A DNA stretch of 20,133 nt from a virus. Of the stretch, positions 3,333 through 20,133 are shown piece by piece (position 1 is the stretch's first letter; each line of letters opens with the position of its first letter). A model generated the notes under the pieces. That model saw only the letters and a list, made by a program, of their open reading frames with translations. It did no database searches and was not told the DNA's origin. The stretch is from positions 1 through 20,133 of the IMG/VR virus record IMGVR_UViG_3300025128_000465. One strand, given 5' to 3'. Both the position numbers and the translations under genes were made by a program.

Positions 3333-3547
3333 TTACCTTTAGACCCGTTAGAAACAGCTTTTTTTAAGCTTGGTAAAAATCTATAACTCAAAGAATGAGA
3401 AACATCTATAGCTCCAGAAGAATAGTTTAAACCTTTTGTAGCGGCTCCTGTCCCTCTAGTTTTTAATGTTTGTGTTTTTCTAACATCATTAGGATAACCG
3501 CTCGCTTGAGGCACCGGAACACTTTTTGGTTGCTTTATAATCTTCAT
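3329..3547 (-). CDS. Small basic virion-region protein with KTRGTGAATKG motif
   Basis: This 72-residue protein is strongly basic and poor in acidic residues. Residues about 18-40 contain YPNDVRKTQTLKTRGTGAAT followed by KG. The RGTGAA-(T/I)-(K/R)-G core is one I recall from small proteins in many marine phages. Ser-rich segments follow, and the C-terminus is Lys-rich (SLKKAVSNGSKGK). The start is ATG 3547 with AGGAG about 7 bases upstream. Its stop overlaps the adaptor start by four bases. It is probably a small head- or connector-associated protein, possibly one that contacts DNA, but nothing in the sequence proves a function. Confidence 0.62.
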   Translation of the reverse strand: MKIIKQPKSVPVPQASGYPNDVRKTQTLKTRGTGAATKGLNYSSGAIDVSHSLSYRFLPSLKKAVSNGSKGK

Positions 3548-7621: not shown

Positions 7622-8296
7622 TTATCTCATCTTACATCTAGTTTTACCTCTAATGGCTATGCCATCTGCTTTCCTCTTGCCATTTCCTACTGCTCCGCCT
7701 TGAGAAAATCTAAGTTTTCCTCTTTTCATAAAGTCTTTAAAAGCATCTTTGAAGTCTAAATCTTTTAGCATTTGACCAGTTGTTCTGAAGTCCTTAGTTC
7801 CTCCTTTACCTTTGGTGCTCCTAATATTTTTACCTGTTTCACCAATTCTACCTGACCTTGGGGTAAGGACTCTTCCTACTTCTTTAGTTCCCCCGGTACC
7901 CCTAGTATCTCTAATGTTTTTTTTGCTACCCATTTTTGGCAGAGGTCTTACAACTGTTTTTAAGTCTCTTGCTTTCTTTTCAGGTTTTTTTTCTACAGGT
8001 TTTAAAGCTGATTTAGCTATATTTTTAGAACTACCTAATACAGGTTTTCTAGGTCTACCAGAGCCTTTTAAGGCTTTAGGGTCTATGTTTTTTGCGCTAC
8101 CCATGACTGGTTTTCTTCTAGCTTCTTCTGCTTTTGTCTTTGTAGAATATTTTTTACCTCGCCATGTGAAAGTTTTTCGACCTTCATCTTTAAATTGTTT
8201 AAACGCTTTTGCAAACGATAAGTCGTCCGTATCGGTTGCTTTCCTTGTGCTTCTATCTTTGACTCCTGAAAAAGCCGCATAGCTACTAGATCTCAT
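7622..8296 (-). CDS. Basic repeat protein with GSxKNI motifs and ADGIA-RGKTR C-terminus
   Basis: This is a 224-residue, very basic protein. Residues 27-51 (SFAKAFKQFKDEGRKTFTWR then GKKYSTK) match a short 'FxxAFxxxxxxGxxxFxWRGKxY' module I recall from phage structural proteins. A partial second copy, FKDAFKDFMKRGKLRF, lies at 182-197. Between them a motif recurs: GSAKNI (66), GSSKNI (88), GSKKNI (123) and TGKNI (154). The latter two are each followed by a TRGTGGTK- or TKGKGGTK-like block. The C-terminus, about 206-223, is KRKADGIAIRGKTRCKM, shared with the MAKGGAV protein. GGGGAAAA precedes the ATG at 8296. It is likely a disordered, DNA-contacting virion protein; this is inference. Confidence 0.72.
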   Translation of the reverse strand: MRSSSYAAFSGVKDRSTRKATDTDDLSFAKAFKQFKDEGRKTFTWRGKKYSTKTKAEEARRKPVMGSAKNIDPKALKGSGRPRKPVLGSSKNIAKSALKPVEKKPEKKARDLKTVVRPLPKMGSKKNIRDTRGTGGTKEVGRVLTPRSGRIGETGKNIRSTKGKGGTKDFRTTGQMLKDLDFKDAFKDFMKRGKLRFSQGGAVGNGKRKADGIAIRGKTRCKMR

Positions 8297-13513: not shown

Positions 13514-15911
13514 CTGACTTAGTATCAGCTCTTTCAAGTCCAATTCTTACTCCCTCCTTAAAGTCTTCTTTTTCTTCTCTTTCCTTTCCTTCCTGCATCT
13601 TTTGCTCTGCCTCTAGGCTATCAATGGCAATCTTGGCTCCTTCAATTTCTGCTTGTGTATCGATTCGCTTATTTTCTCTTTCATCTTTTGCCAGTGCCTC
13701 TTGAGATTTAAGATTAAGTTCTGCCTCGTCCATTGCTTTATCGTGCTGAAATCTAGCTTGTTTAAGTTCCAGTTCAGCTTTTTGCATTTGGACAACAGGG
13801 TCTTCTGCTTGTTGTTGAGCTTGTTGTTGTTGTGCTTCCGCCTGTCCTTTCTGTAACAATTTATCAGAAGCCATAGCAACTACTCTGGACAACTCTACTT
13901 CCACATCCTCTGGTAACTTCTCATCTACCGGAGGTAACGGAACGCCCATCATCTTCTCTATTTCAACTCTATATTGGAAAGCTATATGCTCTGCGATATG
14001 TGCCTGTACTGCCGCTTGTATCGCCCCTGCATTTGGACTTTGTCCGACCATCTCCCTTATTTTAGGGTCTTGAGCCATATTCATGTGTGTCTGTATGTGG
14101 GCTTCATGGTCTTGGTATTGAAATGCTTTTGTTGGTTTACTCTTGAGTAAGCTCATGTTTTCTGATACAGGGTCCATAGGTTTAAAATCGTCTTCCAAAG
14201 GAACGATCTTTTGAACCTCTTTGACACCTAAAACCTCTAGCATTTGTCTATGCAACAAAGGCAGATCATATATATCTGGAGCTCCTTGTGCTAACTGTAA
14301 AGCGGCTTGATACTGGACTACTTTTTGCGCCATTGTACTTGCGTTTGGGTCTGACACAGGTATGACTTCCACTAAATCATAATCTGCCATTTTTGCCATT
14401 TGCGGTCCATCAACCTCATATTTGTAAACTGGTGGGGTGTAGTCCCGAATAATTACTGAAATAAGTTTAAACTCTTTTCGCATTGCATTATGGACTCTGG
14501 CCTGCACGGCTGACATAACTTTCAATGTTCGCTCTAGTATTGCCAGAGTAGTTCCTACAGGAGTTTGTCCTGACATGTCGCCAACTTTTAAATCTGCTAC
14601 CGAAGCAAATCTCCTTCCTTCTTCGATAATTTGATTTAATAATTGAAACAAGGTGCCTGAAGGTTCTTTATACGGCAGGGGTACGATAGATTCTTTTATC
14701 GTGATTCCTGTTACATCTACATCTCTAAACTCTCCCGGAGCTATTGGTGTGTCGTCACCTTTGACTCGTAGGTCTTTTGATTTGAATCCGCCCGGTAAAT
14801 TAGAAAGAGTTCCTGCATCTACCAGTTGTCTGAGGATAGAAGTTGCTGATTCTGCAAAACCACCTACTAAATGAATAAGTCCAAACCCATAGAACCCGAA
14901 TCCGGGAACATAGGTGTAGTGAACAAAGTGCATACGTTTCTTTTTGATTGGGTCTTCTTCCAGATAGTTTCTACGGATACCTAATATCTCCCCAGTGGAT
15001 AACATTGTGACCACATAAGGCAAAGCTATTTGTGTGGTTTGCCCGTCTTTCTTGTCCTCGAATCCTGCTAAGTCTAATTCACAATGACACTCAAAAATGG
15101 TATATCTTTCGTCTTTAACTGCCGAATATCCAGTTTCTTGGTCCTGACTTCTTTCTATGGTTGTTGTATTTTTTTCAGGGTCTGGTAAATCTATATCCAT
15201 ATAGAAACCCATGGACATTAACTTTCGCAGTTCGTTTTCTGTCTTTTTCATTCTGTGAGTGATACGAGGAGAAGACTCTAGGTCTGAAGCTCCGTAAGGA
15301 ACAATCAAATCTTCTGCTGGTACAAACATTGCTACTTGCCTGTTTAAACTTGGGTCAAAGTAAACTTTCTTGAAAGCTGACCCAGCGACCGGTAAAGACC
15401 AAAGTAATCTTTCATGCTCTGTCCTGTACTCTGGCATTTTTTCTGTCAACTCGTAGTTCATGCTTTCCTGAACACGATTTGCCGCTTCCTGCTTTTCTAC
15501 ATTTAACTTTCCAACTATCTGTGTTTTTACAGGACCAGATGCAGGGAACGTAGATAATATGGTTTCTGACTGAAACTTTACAACTGCCTCGGATAATACA
15601 GGGTGAAATACCCCGCAGGCTCCGTCCCACGGCTCCGTTCTTTCCTCTATTTTTAGTCCGAGAAGTTTTATTCCGTCAGAATACGTTCTCTCCCATTCCT
15701 TTCGAGAATCAATATCTGTATTAATATGTGAAAGTATTTCATCGGATACTTCGTCAAGTTCACCGAGATCCATAGATTCAGCAAGGTTTTCCTCAAAGGT
15801 TACAGGTTTTACCTCAACTTCGACTTCGACTTCGCCTTCATCTGCGTCAATCTCGATTTCGATGTCCATTTCCGCTGGAACAAGCGGTTCAAGTGGTTTT
15901 TCTATACTCAT
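13503..15911 (-). CDS. Portal protein (P22-like, 802 aa)
   Basis: The protein forms the dodecameric DNA entry ring at one capsid vertex and the docking site for TerL. At 802 residues it fits the large P22/SU10-type portals. Residues about 10-38 are an acidic repeat (IEIEIDADEGEVEVEVEVKP). Conserved-looking core pieces include EPWDGACGVFHPVLSEAVVK, SAFKKVYFDPSLNRQVAMFV, VHYTYVPGFGFYGFGLIHLV and GTLFQLLNQIIEEGRRFASV followed by ADLKVGDMSGQTP. From about 690 on it becomes a Gln/Glu/Lys-rich coiled coil (QQQQAQQQAED, MQKAELELKQARFQHDKAM), perhaps projecting into the head like the P22 barrel. It abuts terL by a one-base overlap (TAATG). The family call is confident. Confidence 0.92.
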   Translation of the reverse strand: MSIEKPLEPLVPAEMDIEIEIDADEGEVEVEVEVKPVTFEENLAESMDLGELDEVSDEILSHINTDIDSRKEWERTYSDGIKLLGLKIEERTEPWDGACGVFHPVLSEAVVKFQSETILSTFPASGPVKTQIVGKLNVEKQEAANRVQESMNYELTEKMPEYRTEHERLLWSLPVAGSAFKKVYFDPSLNRQVAMFVPAEDLIVPYGASDLESSPRITHRMKKTENELRKLMSMGFYMDIDLPDPEKNTTTIERSQDQETGYSAVKDERYTIFECHCELDLAGFEDKKDGQTTQIALPYVVTMLSTGEILGIRRNYLEEDPIKKKRMHFVHYTYVPGFGFYGFGLIHLVGGFAESATSILRQLVDAGTLSNLPGGFKSKDLRVKGDDTPIAPGEFRDVDVTGITIKESIVPLPYKEPSGTLFQLLNQIIEEGRRFASVADLKVGDMSGQTPVGTTLAILERTLKVMSAVQARVHNAMRKEFKLISVIIRDYTPPVYKYEVDGPQMAKMADYDLVEVIPVSDPNASTMAQKVVQYQAALQLAQGAPDIYDLPLLHRQMLEVLGVKEVQKIVPLEDDFKPMDPVSENMSLLKSKPTKAFQYQDHEAHIQTHMNMAQDPKIREMVGQSPNAGAIQAAVQAHIAEHIAFQYRVEIEKMMGVPLPPVDEKLPEDVEVELSRVVAMASDKLLQKGQAEAQQQQAQQQAEDPVVQMQKAELELKQARFQHDKAMDEAELNLKSQEALAKDERENKRIDTQAEIEGAKIAIDSLEAEQKMQEGKEREEKEDFKEGVRIGLERADTKSDEG

Positions 15912-17416
15912 TAGTAGTACTTAGCCCTTCTTTTGTAAAAAGTTGACTCTGGTTCATCTGTAGGAATCTTAATAAAACCACCCTGTCTAAATCTAAGTAG
16001 TGCTTGACTTGTAGAGTCTACCAAGTCGTCGTGATCTCCATTTGGAAATGAAGCTACTTCTTCTACAACTTCTTCTGCCCATCGTTTATCAGGGGCCCAT
16101 ACTAGACCGGATGCGAATAAATCTGAAATAGCGTTTATACGAGCTATCTTATCTGAACCTTTTGAAGGTGTATATTCAGAAATCGGTATCCCTGTCTTTC
16201 TCATTTCATAAATTAACGGGGCACCCGCCGCTTTTTTCTCCACAATCAACGTATCTGGTTGCCATTGGTCATAAAATTCATACGCCGTTTGCTTTAATTC
16301 TGGGAACTCCATCCTATCCTTGTAGGCATCCAAAAGAATTAGATTCGCTATCTCATCACCATTGTCATTTGGTTTATAAAATATACCCCATGTCGTACAA
16401 GCAGAGTAATCTGCTCGATTATGCTTTTCAAAGGCGGTATCCCACGACTGAATAATGTAATCACAAGGTGGGGGGTTGTCTTTTTCCCAAGTTTGCCACA
16501 TATCTCGCTTGATAATTGCACCTTCCTCCGAGGTGGGGTTTTGTTGGTACTGTGCTTCCCACTTGGGTACGGGTATCTCCGCCTTAATTGATTCAAGTTC
16601 TTCCGCTTTCCAGAATTCAGGCCACAAAGGCTTTCCGGACGGCATAATCGCAGGCAGTTCTATCACTTCCCACTCATCTGAATCACGTTTAATCGAATTT
16701 TGTATAATCTGCCCGGTTAAATCTTTCTTTGACCACCTTGTCATCACGACAACTATCGAACCTCCGGGTTGTAGACGTTGTCGGGGGCCAGATGAATACC
16801 ACTCATATACCCTTTCATACACCTGTGGGGATCCCATCATAGCCTCTTGCTCTGAATGGGGGTCATCTATTATCAAAACATCAGCACCTTTACCCGTAAC
16901 CGCTCCTCCGACACCGATAGCGAAATAATCACCACCTTTATCTGTATTCCATCTACCTGCCGCTTTTGAATCTGCCGATAATTTCAAATCAAATATCTTT
17001 TGGAAGTCAGGAGAGTTCACAAGGTTTCTTACTTTCCTTCCGAATCCCACTGCAAGCTCCGCTGTGTGTGCTGTTTGAATAATTTTTTTCTCCGGATACT
17101 TACCTAAATACCACGCCGGAAACAAATAACTCGCAAATTCTGATTTTGTGTGCCGGGGCGGCATGTTTATAATCAACCTTTTCAACTCCCCATTGGCAAC
17201 TCTCTCAAAAGCATCTGCCATAACCTTATGATGTGACCCTCCTATAAAAGCAGACCACATCTCTTGTACAAAAGGTAAGAAAGAATCCCTACAAGTCTCT
17301 GTCTTATGCGCTTGTAACACCTGCCAAACCTTTTCTATCTCCGGAGACCCACTAGGTAACGTATCTATAACCTTAAGATACCTTTTTACCTCTGCCTTAG
17401 TTAATAAATTACCCAC
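15911..17416 (-). CDS. terL: Terminase large subunit
   Basis: This is a 501-residue ATP-driven DNA packaging motor and nuclease. The Walker A-like segment is NMPPRHTKSEF (about 84-94), with Thr in the place where many relatives have Gly. Walker B is VLIIDD (180-185). The coupling motif region is VVVMTRW (222-228). The RNase-H-like nuclease has acidic residues in QSWDTAF (D326), VEKKAAG (E393) and GDHDDLVD (about 460-467). Size and motifs match the Terminase_6-type large subunits. The start is GTG at 17414-17416, with AAGGTG 7 bases upstream. It overlaps the LexA-like gene by 8 bases and the portal gene by one. All key residues appear intact. Confidence 0.95.
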   Translation of the reverse strand: MGNLLTKAEVKRYLKVIDTLPSGSPEIEKVWQVLQAHKTETCRDSFLPFVQEMWSAFIGGSHHKVMADAFERVANGELKRLIINMPPRHTKSEFASYLFPAWYLGKYPEKKIIQTAHTAELAVGFGRKVRNLVNSPDFQKIFDLKLSADSKAAGRWNTDKGGDYFAIGVGGAVTGKGADVLIIDDPHSEQEAMMGSPQVYERVYEWYSSGPRQRLQPGGSIVVVMTRWSKKDLTGQIIQNSIKRDSDEWEVIELPAIMPSGKPLWPEFWKAEELESIKAEIPVPKWEAQYQQNPTSEEGAIIKRDMWQTWEKDNPPPCDYIIQSWDTAFEKHNRADYSACTTWGIFYKPNDNGDEIANLILLDAYKDRMEFPELKQTAYEFYDQWQPDTLIVEKKAAGAPLIYEMRKTGIPISEYTPSKGSDKIARINAISDLFASGLVWAPDKRWAEEVVEEVASFPNGDHDDLVDSTSQALLRFRQGGFIKIPTDEPESTFYKRRAKYY

Positions 17417-17627
17417 GATTCAACACCTTCAGAGTCCTAGATTGCAAAGGAATCATCCTGACATACCGCTCATTTTGTAATTTGTGAACAATTCTATGGA
17501 TGTTACTCCTACTTCTCATGTTTAAACCTTCTGCAATCTCTCTTAAACAAGGTGGGTATCCCTTTATCCTGATAAAAGCTTCTATAAAATCTAAAACTAA
17601 CTGTTGTCTTTCGGTCAATGTTGTCAA
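17409..17627 (-). CDS. LexA-type winged-helix DNA-binding protein (DNA-binding domain only)
   Basis: This 72-residue protein starts MTTLTERQQLVLDFIEAFIR and continues IKGYPPCLREIAEGLNMRSR, then SNIHRIVHKLQNERYVRMIP. It aligns by eye with the N-terminal domain of LexA from its first residues. Helix 1 is the TERQQ-VLDFI segment, a 'GYPP-x-x-REIA-x-x-L-x-M-x-S' helix-turn-helix follows, and then a wing. The S24 peptidase half of LexA is absent, so self-cleavage in an SOS response is impossible. The start is TTG at 17625-17627, with GAGGG 7 bases upstream. It lies between terS and terL and overlaps terL by 8 bases. A role as a small regulator of the phage late or early promoters, possibly on GTTTAAAC sites, is a hypothesis. 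A packaging accessory role is an alternative. Confidence 0.82.
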   Translation of the reverse strand: MTTLTERQQLVLDFIEAFIRIKGYPPCLREIAEGLNMRSRSNIHRIVHKLQNERYVRMIPLQSRTLKVLNRG

Positions 17628-17768
17628 TTAGAGCCCTCAAAACTGTTTACCTAGTAAAATATTGTAATTGAATGTGCAAATTAGTCTGTATAGTACACGT
17701 ACGTGGCTGTGGCTATAGGTGGGGGTGGGGGTACGTGGGGGTCTTGACACTCGCATTTTGCTTTAGCC
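17628..17768. other. Non-coding G-rich gap between terS and the LexA-like gene (possible packaging or regulatory site)
   Basis: This 141-bp stretch has no convincing gene. On the plus strand it carries three 5-G runs (17721-17725, 17727-17731, 17737-17741). GTACGTGG occurs twice as a direct repeat (17699-17706 and 17731-17738), and CACGTACGTG forms a 10-bp palindrome at 17696-17705. The rest is AT-rich. A location directly beside terS, in an otherwise gapless operon, suggests a TerS recognition (pac/cos) site or control region. Neither can be shown from sequence alone. Confidence 0.55.
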
Positions 17769-18290
17769 CTAGTGCGTGTTTAAACTTTTATTATCAAACG
17801 TACTCAACACTGACTCAAGTTCGTGTTTAAGTTTTTCCGGTGATACTTTCTGAGTTATCTCTTGCCTATCTACAAACAGTCCTGATGCCTTACCTAACAT
17901 TTCCAGAGCTCTAACTTGAACGTGTTCATTTTTACTTTCTGTCGCATGTTTAAACAATCGTTCTACGACAGTCTTCCTTAGTTGGTTGCTGTCCTCAAGA
18001 TTACATTCTTGTTGTCTCTCAAATTGTTTGTCTATTTCTCTACGAATAGCCGGTTGTCGTGTAAGTTTGTTCGCAGTACTTTGTATACTCTTTTCTTTGG
18101 TGTTCGGTGATACATCATATGCTTTTCTGTATGAATCACTTGGAGAGTGGCCTTGGCATATTAAAGAGACAAATGCCTTTTGTTTTTCGGTAAGTCTTTT
18201 GGCCGGACGTTTATAGCCTATTGGCTCTCCATTCTTTTTAGTGGCAGGCTCTATACTCTTTATATTATGTTCTAGTTCTTCTTTAGTCAT
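17769..18290 (-). CDS. terS: Terminase small subunit
   Basis: This 173-residue protein recognises phage DNA and hands it to TerL. The N-terminal part has YKRPAKRLTEKQKAFVSLIC, then QGHSPSDSYRKAYDVSPNTK. The segment 'LTEKQKAFV...G...P-S-D-SYRKAY' is the helix-turn-helix signature of Terminase_2-type small subunits. Helices follow with SIQSTANKLTRQPAIRREID, and EHVQVRALEMLGKASGLFVD is typical of the central oligomerisation region. The C-terminus is acidic and hydrophilic. The ATG at 18290 has only a weak AAGG-like site. It is the first late gene of the minus strand, separated from the origin region by AT-rich DNA. GTTTAAAC sites fall within it at 17778 and 17948. Confidence 0.88.
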   Translation of the reverse strand: MTKEELEHNIKSIEPATKKNGEPIGYKRPAKRLTEKQKAFVSLICQGHSPSDSYRKAYDVSPNTKEKSIQSTANKLTRQPAIRREIDKQFERQQECNLEDSNQLRKTVVERLFKHATESKNEHVQVRALEMLGKASGLFVDRQEITQKVSPEKLKHELESVLSTFDNKSLNTH

Positions 18291-18546
18291 ATCTATCTGC
18301 CTTGCTTCGCATTGGTTGCCCCGATTTTATACGAACAAAAGGCGTGAATTATTTTTAACATTACCTGCTATTTTGAACCCTAGCTCGACAAATTGCAATG
18401 TTTAAACGCTAAAAAAAGTACATTTGGAAGTACTGTAGAGATACACAGGCGAAATTGCGTAGCTGTCCTCAAAACAATTTTACATACCAAAGTAAACACT
18501 TTTGTAGAAATGCAGTCAGGGCTCTCTATTCAAGCCTGAAGTTGTA

Positions 18547-18555
18547 TGTGGATAA
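18547..18555 (-). other. Perfect DnaA box
   Basis: The minus strand reads TTATCCACA, the consensus high-affinity DnaA binding site. It is paired with an oppositely oriented copy 110 bp away, in AT-rich non-coding DNA. Confidence 0.7.
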
Positions 18556-18665
18556 CTTAATCAATCCATATTTAGTAATCAAGCATATCTGTTTGTACTA
18601 GATATAGTAATTTTACTGGTCAATAACTATCCAATATTGGGCTCAAAAGCTTGGATTATTTTGAC

Positions 18666-18674
18666 TTATCCACA
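18666..18674 (+). other. Perfect DnaA box
   Basis: The plus strand reads TTATCCACA, immediately followed by a GTTTAAAC palindrome (18675-18682). It faces the copy at 18547-18555 in inverted orientation. Confidence 0.7.
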
Positions 18675-18751
18675 GTTTAAACAAACTTTATTCCTGACAT
18701 TTCTGTTGCTCAGTTGATTAATAGGTATCACTAACTTAAAAGGGGAAGCTT

Positions 18752-18853
18752 ATGAATGAGTCACCATTTGATATTTGGAATTTCTTATTGGTTGTTATTT
18801 ATGTTGTTTGCGGATTGGGGTTGAAGTTTTTAATTTTTTGGAGTCTTTCTTAA
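18752..18853 (+). CDS. Small membrane peptide (33 aa)
   Basis: The frame runs from ATG 18752-18754 to TAA 18851-18853, with AGGGG 7 bases upstream. The peptide has a short acidic start (MNESPFDIWN), a hydrophobic stretch (FLLVVIYVVCGLGL), then KFLIFWSLS. One membrane span covers about residues 11-30. It is the first plus-strand gene after the origin-like region and lies just before the early promoter. No family is recognised; small one-span early peptides are common in phages. It may alter the host membrane, which is inference. Confidence 0.5.
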   Translation: MNESPFDIWNFLLVVIYVVCGLGLKFLIFWSLS

Positions 18854-18893
18854 CAATTTTTATAAAGTTTGTCTATTAATTAACAATATTGTG

Positions 18894-18922
18894 TTGACAT
18901 AGTAAACAGTTTTGACTACATT
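18894..18922 (+). promoter_or_regulatory. Sigma70-type promoter for plus-strand genes
   Basis: A perfect -35 box TTGACA (18894-18899) is followed after 17 bp by TACATT (18917-18922), which matches four of six -10 positions. It lies 45 bases upstream of the ATG at 18967. A GTTTAAAC palindrome at 18942-18949 sits between the predicted start of transcription and the ribosome binding site, where a repressor could act. Confidence 0.65.
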
Positions 18923-18966
18923 AATGGTTAGGGGTAATAACGTTTAAACATTTTGGAGGGGTGCTT

Positions 18967-19719
18967 ATGAAGGAAATCACTATCAACAATCAGTCGGTAG
19001 TCTTAACTGCTAAGTATGCGAATGGTGCTGAGTGGGTTCAGCGAGCATTTCAGGAAGTTAGACCGATAATTAATCTGGCTTTTTCTGATAAATCTGGCAA
19101 GGCTCAGGAGCCTGTTAAGTTTGGGTTTGACTCTAGTCAGTTGGATAAAATCCAATTTGCTGTCGGGTTCCAGTCTCGACGTAATCGCACTAAGAACCCA
19201 TTGACCTGCGAGGTTGTTTTGAATGCGAGCCCTGATGTTCATCAAGTGTCTATCGGGATTGATATTGCAAACGAGCAGGATGCTTTGGCTTCCATGTTGA
19301 CCGGTATTGCTAGAGTCGGTTTCGGTTATTCGCATTTAAAGAAGTTAGAAAAGGATGCAGGGAAACAGGGTCTAAACTTTGATTCATCGGGCTTTGAGTT
19401 TCATGGAGTGAAGATTAAAAACTACCGTTGGTTTTTACGTTGGTTTGGTCTAGATGTATCTGACCCAGTCCGCCCTCGTTCTACCGATAACTTTACTCAG
19501 GAATATTTAAACCTGATACAGGAGTTAGGCGAGTTTCCACATCAGGCGGTGAAGCTTAAAAGTAACAAGCTTGCTAATAATGATAGTCGGGCTATGCTTT
19601 CCGGCAAGTGTACAGAGTGCGATGCCCGTTGCTCTGTACTCAAAGGACAGCTAGACCGGTTCGGCTCACCATTGTGTCCAGTGCACAATACGCCTTACCA
19701 CTTCCCACGTTATCAATAA
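18967..19719 (+). CDS. Early protein of unknown function with C-terminal zinc-knuckle-like motif
   Basis: The ATG at 18967 (250 residues) is chosen because GGAGG (18955-18959) is 7 bases before it. A GTG at 18961 would add two residues but touches the site. The body holds YANGAEWVQRAFQEVRPIIN, DALASMLTGIARVGFGYSHL and FEFHGVKIKNYRWFLRWFGL. The C-terminus has C215-T-E-C218 and C237-P-V-H240, a possible C2CH zinc site. 'PRSTDNFTQEYLNLIQELGE' resembles phage early proteins, but I know no function. No HExxH, nuclease or helicase motif is visible. The DNA is less AT-rich than most late genes. It is led by the promoter at 18894 and followed 15 bp later by the next gene. Confidence 0.72.
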   Translation: MKEITINNQSVVLTAKYANGAEWVQRAFQEVRPIINLAFSDKSGKAQEPVKFGFDSSQLDKIQFAVGFQSRRNRTKNPLTCEVVLNASPDVHQVSIGIDIANEQDALASMLTGIARVGFGYSHLKKLEKDAGKQGLNFDSSGFEFHGVKIKNYRWFLRWFGLDVSDPVRPRSTDNFTQEYLNLIQELGEFPHQAVKLKSNKLANNDSRAMLSGKCTECDARCSVLKGQLDRFGSPLCPVHNTPYHFPRYQ

Positions 19720-19734
19720 TAAGGAGATACGAAT

Positions 19735-20133
19735 ATGACAAAAGGTCAAAAATTACAGTTATCAAAATTGTCGTTACATCAGTTGAAGGCTATAATCGCT
19801 AAGGTTTCTCGAAGCGGTGTAATTCAAATAGACGATCATTCGTTTAATAGACTGACAAAAGAGCAGGCGCTTGAGTTTGTTATGCACCCACGTGTCGGTA
19901 ACAAGTACCAATTTGAGCAGTTGATGTCAGTAGCTAAGGGCGCAGGCACCAGTGAAGGCGTAAAGACTACTGGCGGTAATGAACTCGCAAGCCTTATCAC
20001 TCGTGCTAAGGAATTGCAAAATGAAGTTGACAAACGTTTTGACGATGTCAATGGACGTATGAGTCACCAGTTAAACCACATCGAGCAGACTCTACAAAAC
20101 GCTACAGCCGATATTCAAAACGCATTGAAGCCT
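19735..20133 (+). CDS. Early protein, N-terminal part only (runs off right edge)
   Basis: It starts at ATG 19735, with AAGGAG 8 bases upstream. 133 residues are visible before the edge. The N-terminus reads MTKGQKLQLSKLSLHQLKAI, a basic helical segment. FNRLTKEQALEFVMHPRVGN follows, and the later part is coiled-coil-like (RAKELQNEVDKRFDDVNGRM, QLNHIEQTLQNATADIQNAL). In several phages a helical lead like this precedes an AAA+ ATPase domain, but no P-loop is visible here. The identity is therefore open. It is in the same operon as the zinc-motif gene, 15 bp after its stop. Confidence 0.65.
   Translation, partial: MTKGQKLQLSKLSLHQLKAIIAKVSRSGVIQIDDHSFNRLTKEQALEFVMHPRVGNKYQFEQLMSVAKGAGTSEGVKTTGGNELASLITRAKELQNEVDKRFDDVNGRMSHQLNHIEQTLQNATADIQNALKP

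Follow-up and report, generated by a model that had tools for sequence, protein, structure and literature searches.

The octamer GTTTAAAC recurs in IMG/VR virus record IMGVR_UViG_3300025128_000465, a stretch of 20,133 bases that was analysed in full and is referred to as the window. We propose that it is probably the recognition site of a 72-residue LexA-type protein encoded at positions 17409-17627, and that the phage carries a dispersed, genome-wide set of operators. Cognate binding of the word by this protein, predicted from sequence comparison, is considered quite likely. Across related phages the word is linked to the gene, conserved and spread over the genome, and its sequence class tends to follow the protein. 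The initial annotation of the window had seen a local cluster of palindromes and suggested an operator array for a phage regulator, with the LexA-like protein as candidate, sites for a phage methylase, or iterons for replication. The first of these suggestions gained from the co-occurrence of word and gene, from word shifts linked to the recognition helix and from sites before the gene start.

The repeated word and the LexA-like gene

GTTTAAAC occurs 11 times in the window against 0.82 expected, a count reached in none of 100 dinucleotide shuffles, and under a second-order model it is the most over-represented 8-mer. The strictest model, which is conditioned on the word's own 7-mers, raises the expectation to 5.5 because most occurrences of GTTTAAA and TTTAAAC stem from GTTTAAAC itself. 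The extended form ATGTTTAAAC, noted initially in four copies, was recovered in that number (0.08 expected). Six of the copies lie within 1.43 kb (17520-18949; P ~0.003, given 11 random positions), and the remaining five fall inside open reading frames of the terL (terminase large subunit) strand. The reported cluster is thus real, but it is merely the dense part of a motif that extends through the genome and the clade. The word is palindromic in the class to which the window belongs, while most word variants of the clade are non-palindromic. No near-identical phage records to the window were found, and a search of the window against Rfam gave no match. The 11 sites, listed without strand, are as follows.

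890-897: within an open reading frame of the terL strand
3425-3432: within an open reading frame of the terL strand
8197-8204: within an open reading frame of the terL strand
14465-14472: in the portal gene; same in the related contig G001
15342-15349: in the portal gene; same in G001
17520-17527: within the LexA-like gene; same in G001
17778-17785: 3' end of terS (terminase small subunit)
17948-17955: within terS
18400-18407: upstream of terS
18675-18682: abuts a DnaA box
18942-18949: ahead of the rightward operon, after a promoter-like sequence

The related TerL loci split into a group rich in GTTTAAAC and relatives with almost none. A homologue of the LexA-type protein is present in 133 of 186 such loci, on the terL strand in all 133 and directly beside terL in 128. 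The gene-bearing loci, which overlap in part and add up to 1.34 Mb, hold 793 copies against 18.5 expected. Of the loci that lack the gene, 34 have 500 bp or more before terL, and these contain 3 copies (6.4 expected). The other 19 of the 53 gene-less loci were set aside, as they had less than 500 bp before terL or TerL was missing. They contain 22 copies (2.9 expected), 17 of which are accounted for by L081 and L022. Dereplication by TerL likeness reduced the 167 loci to 129 (100 with and 29 without the gene), for which the counts are 629 against 15.6 expected and 3 against 5.9, respectively. At P<0.01, enrichment for the three main word variants was seen in 90 of the 100 gene-bearing loci and in none of the 29 others. 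Chance or base composition as the cause of the word is ruled out by the shuffle, model and dereplicated-locus counts.

The association is also visible at close range. Within one supported clade of the TerL tree, L029, L031 and L034 have both gene and word (25 copies against 0.5 expected), while both are missing from L056, L073, L077 and L079 (0 copies, 0.76 expected). One locus that carries the gene and appeared motif-free (L035) turned out to belong to a contig, G016, that holds the variant GTGTAAAC. A distant LexA-like match without GTTTAAAC was observed in L103 and L104, binned as Bacteroidetes and Saccharibacteria; these two may use a different word. A search for hosts via genome contigs returned three binned contigs from three phyla, L103 and L104 among them, and was uninformative.

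The protein itself matches the LexA_DNA_bind profile PF01726 at 2e-17 and 63.2 bits (curated cut-off 23.7), and each of 12 other large contigs contains exactly one match above the cut-off. A profile built from 71 relatives retrieved LexA structures first (best E 1.1e-8). The structure model has a mean predicted local distance difference test (pLDDT) score of 84.8 and contains three helices and no resolved wing; the last two blocks score 61 and 67. The nearest solved structures are LexA DNA-binding domains (3jsp, E 2.3e-3, probability 1.00), with none at or below 0.001. By profile and model, the phage protein has the DNA-binding domain of LexA repressors (PDB 3jso, 3jsp, 1lea and 3k2z) in common with them. 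It differs in that these have a C-terminal domain, whereas the phage protein stops after the DNA-binding domain: the frame closes after 72 residues and the self-cleaving dimerisation domain of full LexA is not present. The gene overlaps the start of terL by 8 bases and is arranged with its neighbours as follows.

17409-17627, minus strand: LexA-type winged-helix protein, 72 residues, between terS and terL; proposed binder of the sites
15911-17416, minus strand: TerL (phrog_38, 7.1e-107)
17769-18290, minus strand: TerS (PF03592, 8e-7; phrog_51, 3e-14)
17628-17768, minus strand: noncoding gap from terS to the LexA-like gene; in many relatives it contains further shared blocks and a site next to the start of the LexA-like gene

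Distribution and conservation of the sites

In the larger relatives the word is scattered over the contig, e.g. with 43 copies in G011 (56 kb) and 34 in G009 (42 kb), and five contigs of 42-64 kb hold 21-46 copies each. A cluster of local extent only is ruled out by this spread throughout the clade contigs. A set of 12 contigs, which includes the near-identical G006, G007 and G008, contains 220 copies against 8.5 expected; 35 of them are intergenic (8.8 expected), i.e. intergenic DNA is favoured. Among the 124 sites in genes of at least 100 residues, 67 and 55 lie in the two stop-free frames and 2 in the stop-containing frame, and the position of sites within genes is indistinguishable from uniform (Kolmogorov–Smirnov p 0.24). 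Frame usage and uniform position rule out a codon or protein effect as the cause of the word.

The density of sites varies along the genome. In seven contigs, for which genes were called mechanically, GTTTAAAC reaches 2.97 copies per kb in the control zone (the LexA-like gene plus the 1.6 kb upstream), 1.77 in the remaining intergenic DNA, 0.92 in genes that run opposite to terL and 0.39 in terL-strand genes. Equal density along the genome, the outcome that the initial annotation had named as speaking against its cluster, was thus found in one respect, as the word is everywhere, but not in the other, as the control zone is ~3-8 times denser than genes. Beyond this zone the gaps between sites in the contigs of five relatives are random (coefficient of variation 0.97-1.23), by which regular spacing is ruled out. 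The window intervals of 258, 275 and 267 bp had been measured correctly but are given no weight, because the gaps elsewhere in relatives look random.

The sites also accumulate at the gene for the LexA-like protein. Across 97 loci, five word variants contribute 56 sites to the 50 bp that precede the start of the LexA-like gene and 42 sites to the interval 200-250 bp upstream, where six scrambled words picked by the analyst gave 0 in each case. We lean towards the view that in the clade the protein controls its own promoter, the window being a member without a site there. An alternative explanation is that the word serves as a promoter -10 element for a phage or host sigma factor. Inspection by eye of L013, L167, L181, L198, L207 and L211 lends this some appeal, as a TTG hexamer at the LexA-like promoter is followed 17 bp later by a -10-like hexamer with which the site overlaps. 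However, no TTG peak is seen at the matching distance for 87 intergenic and 569 coding oriented sites in the 12 contigs. Its absence rules out a general -10 element, and the explanation as a whole is hardly credible.

The word could further be methylation-linked or imposed by the host rather than being the site of a phage protein. HIP1, an iterated 8-bp palindrome that accompanies methyltransferases, is the model for such a case. Against this very improbable reading stand the peaks in the control zone and the observation that the word shifts with the helix of the phage protein. In addition, methyltransferases are scarce in the 12 large motif-clade contigs, a count that covers phage-encoded enzymes only: N6_N4_Mtase was found in 1 of 12, and N6_Mtase, MethyltransfD12 and DNA_methylase in 0 of 12. 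On these numbers the proposal of sites for a phage methylase is not supported, and such an enzyme is ruled out as a general feature of the clade. The sole N6_N4 DNA methyltransferase among the 12 contigs lies at G011:25342-26298.

Conservation was assessed relative to control 8-mers of equal A+T content in pairwise alignments, which overlap, so that the counts are non-independent. At 80-85% identity, 173 of 239 sites were unchanged compared to 13,246 of 45,369 control 8-mers; at 85-90% identity, the corresponding figures were 96 of 113 and 10,940 of 26,090. Between the window and G001 all three aligned sites were unchanged, as opposed to 311 of 2,125 controls. The sites are thereby kept in relatives far above the control level, in agreement with the positional conservation that the initial annotation had proposed to look for.

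Word variants, the recognition helix and the weight of the evidence

The word is not the same in all members of the clade. GTGTAAAC is found 15 times in G020 (0.48 expected), ATTTAAAC 22 times and ATTTAAAT 8 times in G021 (0.15 and 0.05 expected), and ATGTAAAC 10 times in G022 (0.65 expected), while in G023 to G025 GTTTAAAC is commonest and GTGTAAAC next. The set is summarised as NTKTAAAY, with one half near-constant and the other half variable. We take NTGTAAAC to resemble the LexA half-site CTGT, and the LexA-like protein perhaps reads one LexA-like half-site as a monomer.

Where the recognition helix differs, the word often becomes GTGTAAAC or ATTTAAAC. The best-associated of the 72 protein columns is residue 48, close to where the recognition helix ends; this residue had been spotted by eye ahead of the column scan. 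Where the position is H or Q, GTTTAAAC is dominant in 60 of 72 loci, and with other residues in 2 of 17, the tabulation omitting the 11 of 100 gene-bearing loci that have fewer than three sites. In a partial Mantel analysis with TerL distance held, the motif spectrum correlates with the DNA-facing residues at r 0.416 and with three other segments of the protein at 0.194-0.289.

Several observations count against a dispersed operator set read by the LexA-like protein. The helix association is the first concern. All five protein segments beat 500 permutations in the Mantel analysis, and guanine-plus-cytosine distance likewise correlates with the motif spectrum (raw 0.273). On the tree, residue 48 changes only ~5 times, which is insufficient for a sign test, and the motif class changes 17 times, mostly without a change at residue 48; L156 has H48 and the word ATTTAAAC. 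Moreover, the residue is not among the DNA contacts named for E. coli LexA (39, 41, 42, 44 and 45; PMC13416735).

The link between gene and word is similarly imperfect. In ten of the 100 gene-bearing loci the tested variants are not enriched, and on the TerL tree the gene undergoes ~3 state changes compared to 11 for motif presence (at least three sites), in part because the loci are short; sign tests on independent pairs had too few pairs. At least three other families (an AAA ATPase, phrog_6361 and a VWA protein) are also restricted to the motif-bearing contigs compared, and presence alone therefore does not single out the LexA-like gene. As to placement, 185 of the 220 sites lie inside mechanically called genes, which is odd for classical operators. 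Of 94 loci, 40 have a site between -70 and +10 relative to the start of the LexA-like gene, an interval in which the window has none. Finally, the division into early genes (opposite to terL) and late genes (terL strand) was set by strand alone.

Proposed role and comparison with known systems

How the LexA-like protein might act is suggested by the position of its gene. Encoded just before terL, it would be made together with the terminase and accumulate during late expression. It would then occupy the origin region, the promoters of the control zone and the sites within early genes, and this occupancy would end early transcription and replication as packaging begins. Such an early-to-late silencing role is a tentative proposal, held at somewhat less than even confidence. 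The broader picture is more speculative still: in a perhaps lytic clade, a LexA-type domain would serve as a genome-wide phage chromosome protein that reads the 8-bp word NTKTAAAY, settles on the origin region and within early genes, and passes the DNA on from replication to the packaging stage, with word and protein co-evolving.

The postulated origin region is defined by DnaA boxes, which in the window are accompanied by a promoter-like sequence.

18547-18555, minus strand: perfect DnaA box TGTGGATAA, at the clade-wide peak
18666-18674, plus strand: perfect DnaA box TTATCCACA, at the clade-wide peak
18894-18922, plus strand: promoter-like TTGACA-N17-TACATT, a consensus match only

In gene-bearing loci, perfect DnaA boxes form a sharp peak 1-2 kb upstream of terL, upstream of terS (distances to terL were counted from the start codon that comes first in its open frame). 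Of the 60 loci that bear the gene and extend more than 1.8 kb upstream of terL, 45 have a perfect box at 0.5-2 kb and 37 have two or more, in comparison to 0 of 16 gene-less loci. The motif sites flank the box cluster on both sides, and the cluster is a candidate host-DnaA-dependent origin. The initial annotation had placed the 18675 copy next to a DnaA box, and TTATCCACA indeed abuts it. Conversely, the promoter assigned ahead of the 18942 copy is present as a sequence, but promoter-like matches number 6 in the stretch against 5.9 in shuffles.

These boxes bear on replication control as an alternative, in which the sites would be iteron-like origin elements and the remainder incidental. The flanking of the box clusters and the abutting 18675 copy fit this idea, whereas sites genome-wide and conserved far from the origin, including the two portal-gene sites of the window and G001, do not; we regard it as improbable. 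Of the initial iteron claim, the iterons as such are not supported because the sites run genome-wide with random spacing, while the peak of perfect DnaA boxes 1-2 kb upstream of terL speaks for the idea of an origin.

Additional elements were observed in the same region. A second palindrome, GAACGTTC, is present in 41 of 85 loci at a distance of 230-600 bp upstream of terL and directly precedes the motif site at the LexA-like promoter in L167, L211, L207, L193, L152 and L164; it is possibly a site for a host or SOS-type regulator. The gap from terS to the LexA-like gene contains the shared noncoding blocks GGTATATA (50 of 85 loci) and ACGCTCTA (34 of 85), for which a promoter, a hairpin or a packaging site are possible assignments, and C-rich runs of relatives match the plus-strand G-rich runs in the window gap (17718-17743). 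An operon for a phrog_6361 protein, a CbbQ-like AAA ATPase and VWA/CobT-like proteins is located at 18961-20133 in the window, at G009:9495-13557 and at G011:36219-39193. It was seen in motif-bearing contigs and in 0 of 7 others compared.

A packaging or self-marking factor would be a different use of the same gene position: the protein would assist the terminase by marking phage DNA, and packaging would start, in the manner of a pac or cos site, at the dense cluster around terS. The location of the gene beside terL (128 of 133 loci), the highest site density upstream of terL and the noncoding blocks common to loci between terS and the LexA-like gene are all in line with this. Contig starts, however, show no sharp pile-up upstream of terL, and sites at the gene's own start suit regulation better, so that we judge the explanation distinctly unlikely.

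Lysogeny deserves a similar consideration. Here, a repressor with dispersed operators or stoperators would silence a dormant phage, perhaps a DnaA-dependent phage-plasmid. Dispersed operators are described for P1 C1 and for cluster A-type repressors, the clade has its DnaA-box cluster, and a tyrosine recombinase domain is encoded at G009:25469-25927. On the other hand, the 12 large contigs, which may be incomplete, yielded the tyrosine recombinase family in 1 of 12, resolvase or serine recombinase in 0 of 12 and ParA-type AAA_31 in 0 of 12, and a place beside terL in 128 of 133 loci is not what a lysogeny repressor would suggest. This alternative is unlikely as well. ParA-type partition is ruled out by the lack of AAA_31 in the 12 contigs.

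Returning to the dispersed operator set of the LexA-like protein, the sets available for comparison are those of temperate phages, whereas the present clade combines a near-bare LexA DNA-binding domain with hundreds of mostly intragenic sites. The clade is large and uncultured and has the gene beside the terminase and a DnaA-box cluster. If the proposal is correct, it would provide a testable case of a phage switching its entire genome from replication to packaging. It would also supply naturally varying helix/site pairs for studying specificity change in winged-helix proteins. No description of such a system was found in the open-licence literature, and every element has a precedent in known systems.

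HIP1 of cyanobacteria is a high-frequency, genome-wide 8-bp palindrome and as such similar in appearance, but it is reported to be tied to methyltransferases (PMC4390886), whereas GTTTAAAC is tied to a phage DNA-binding protein. MrpR of SPbeta is a phage master repressor that recognises a repeated genomic element, SPBRE; this is reported as a 15-bp motif at intergenic regions, and MrpR is a recombinase-fold repressor, unlike the LexA-type protein (PMC10516654). For cluster A mycobacteriophages, more than 20 genome-wide stoperators bound by one phage protein are described (PMC9283540). Those sites are 13 bp long, asymmetric and located in promoters and short intergenic spaces, and the repressor has two domains. 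The stoperator pattern of asymmetric promoter or intergenic sites does not apply here, as the word of the window's class is palindromic and the sites are mostly intragenic (185 of 220).

Two systems come closer. The P1 C1 repressor has 22 operators dispersed over the genome, and its control extends to replication and late genes (PMC8546580). For the LexA-like protein, many sites and a peak before the gene's own start were observed, from which it may repress transcription. P1 C1 differs as a lysogeny repressor with 17-bp asymmetric operators, whereas here the word has 8 bp and the protein encoded beside terL is a LexA-type winged helix. Gp6 of the Bacillus thuringiensis phage GIL01, a truncated homologue of LexA, is reported to bind a palindromic site and to be required for timely late expression (PMC6182141). 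Like the 72-residue protein, it is phage-encoded and consists of the LexA DNA-binding domain alone; it is reported to activate a late promoter from one site, whereas here the gene lies beside terL and each of five contigs of 42-64 kb has 21-46 mostly intragenic copies of GTTTAAAC. By analogy, the nearest precedent is GIL01 gp6 for the protein and P1 C1 for the layout of the sites.

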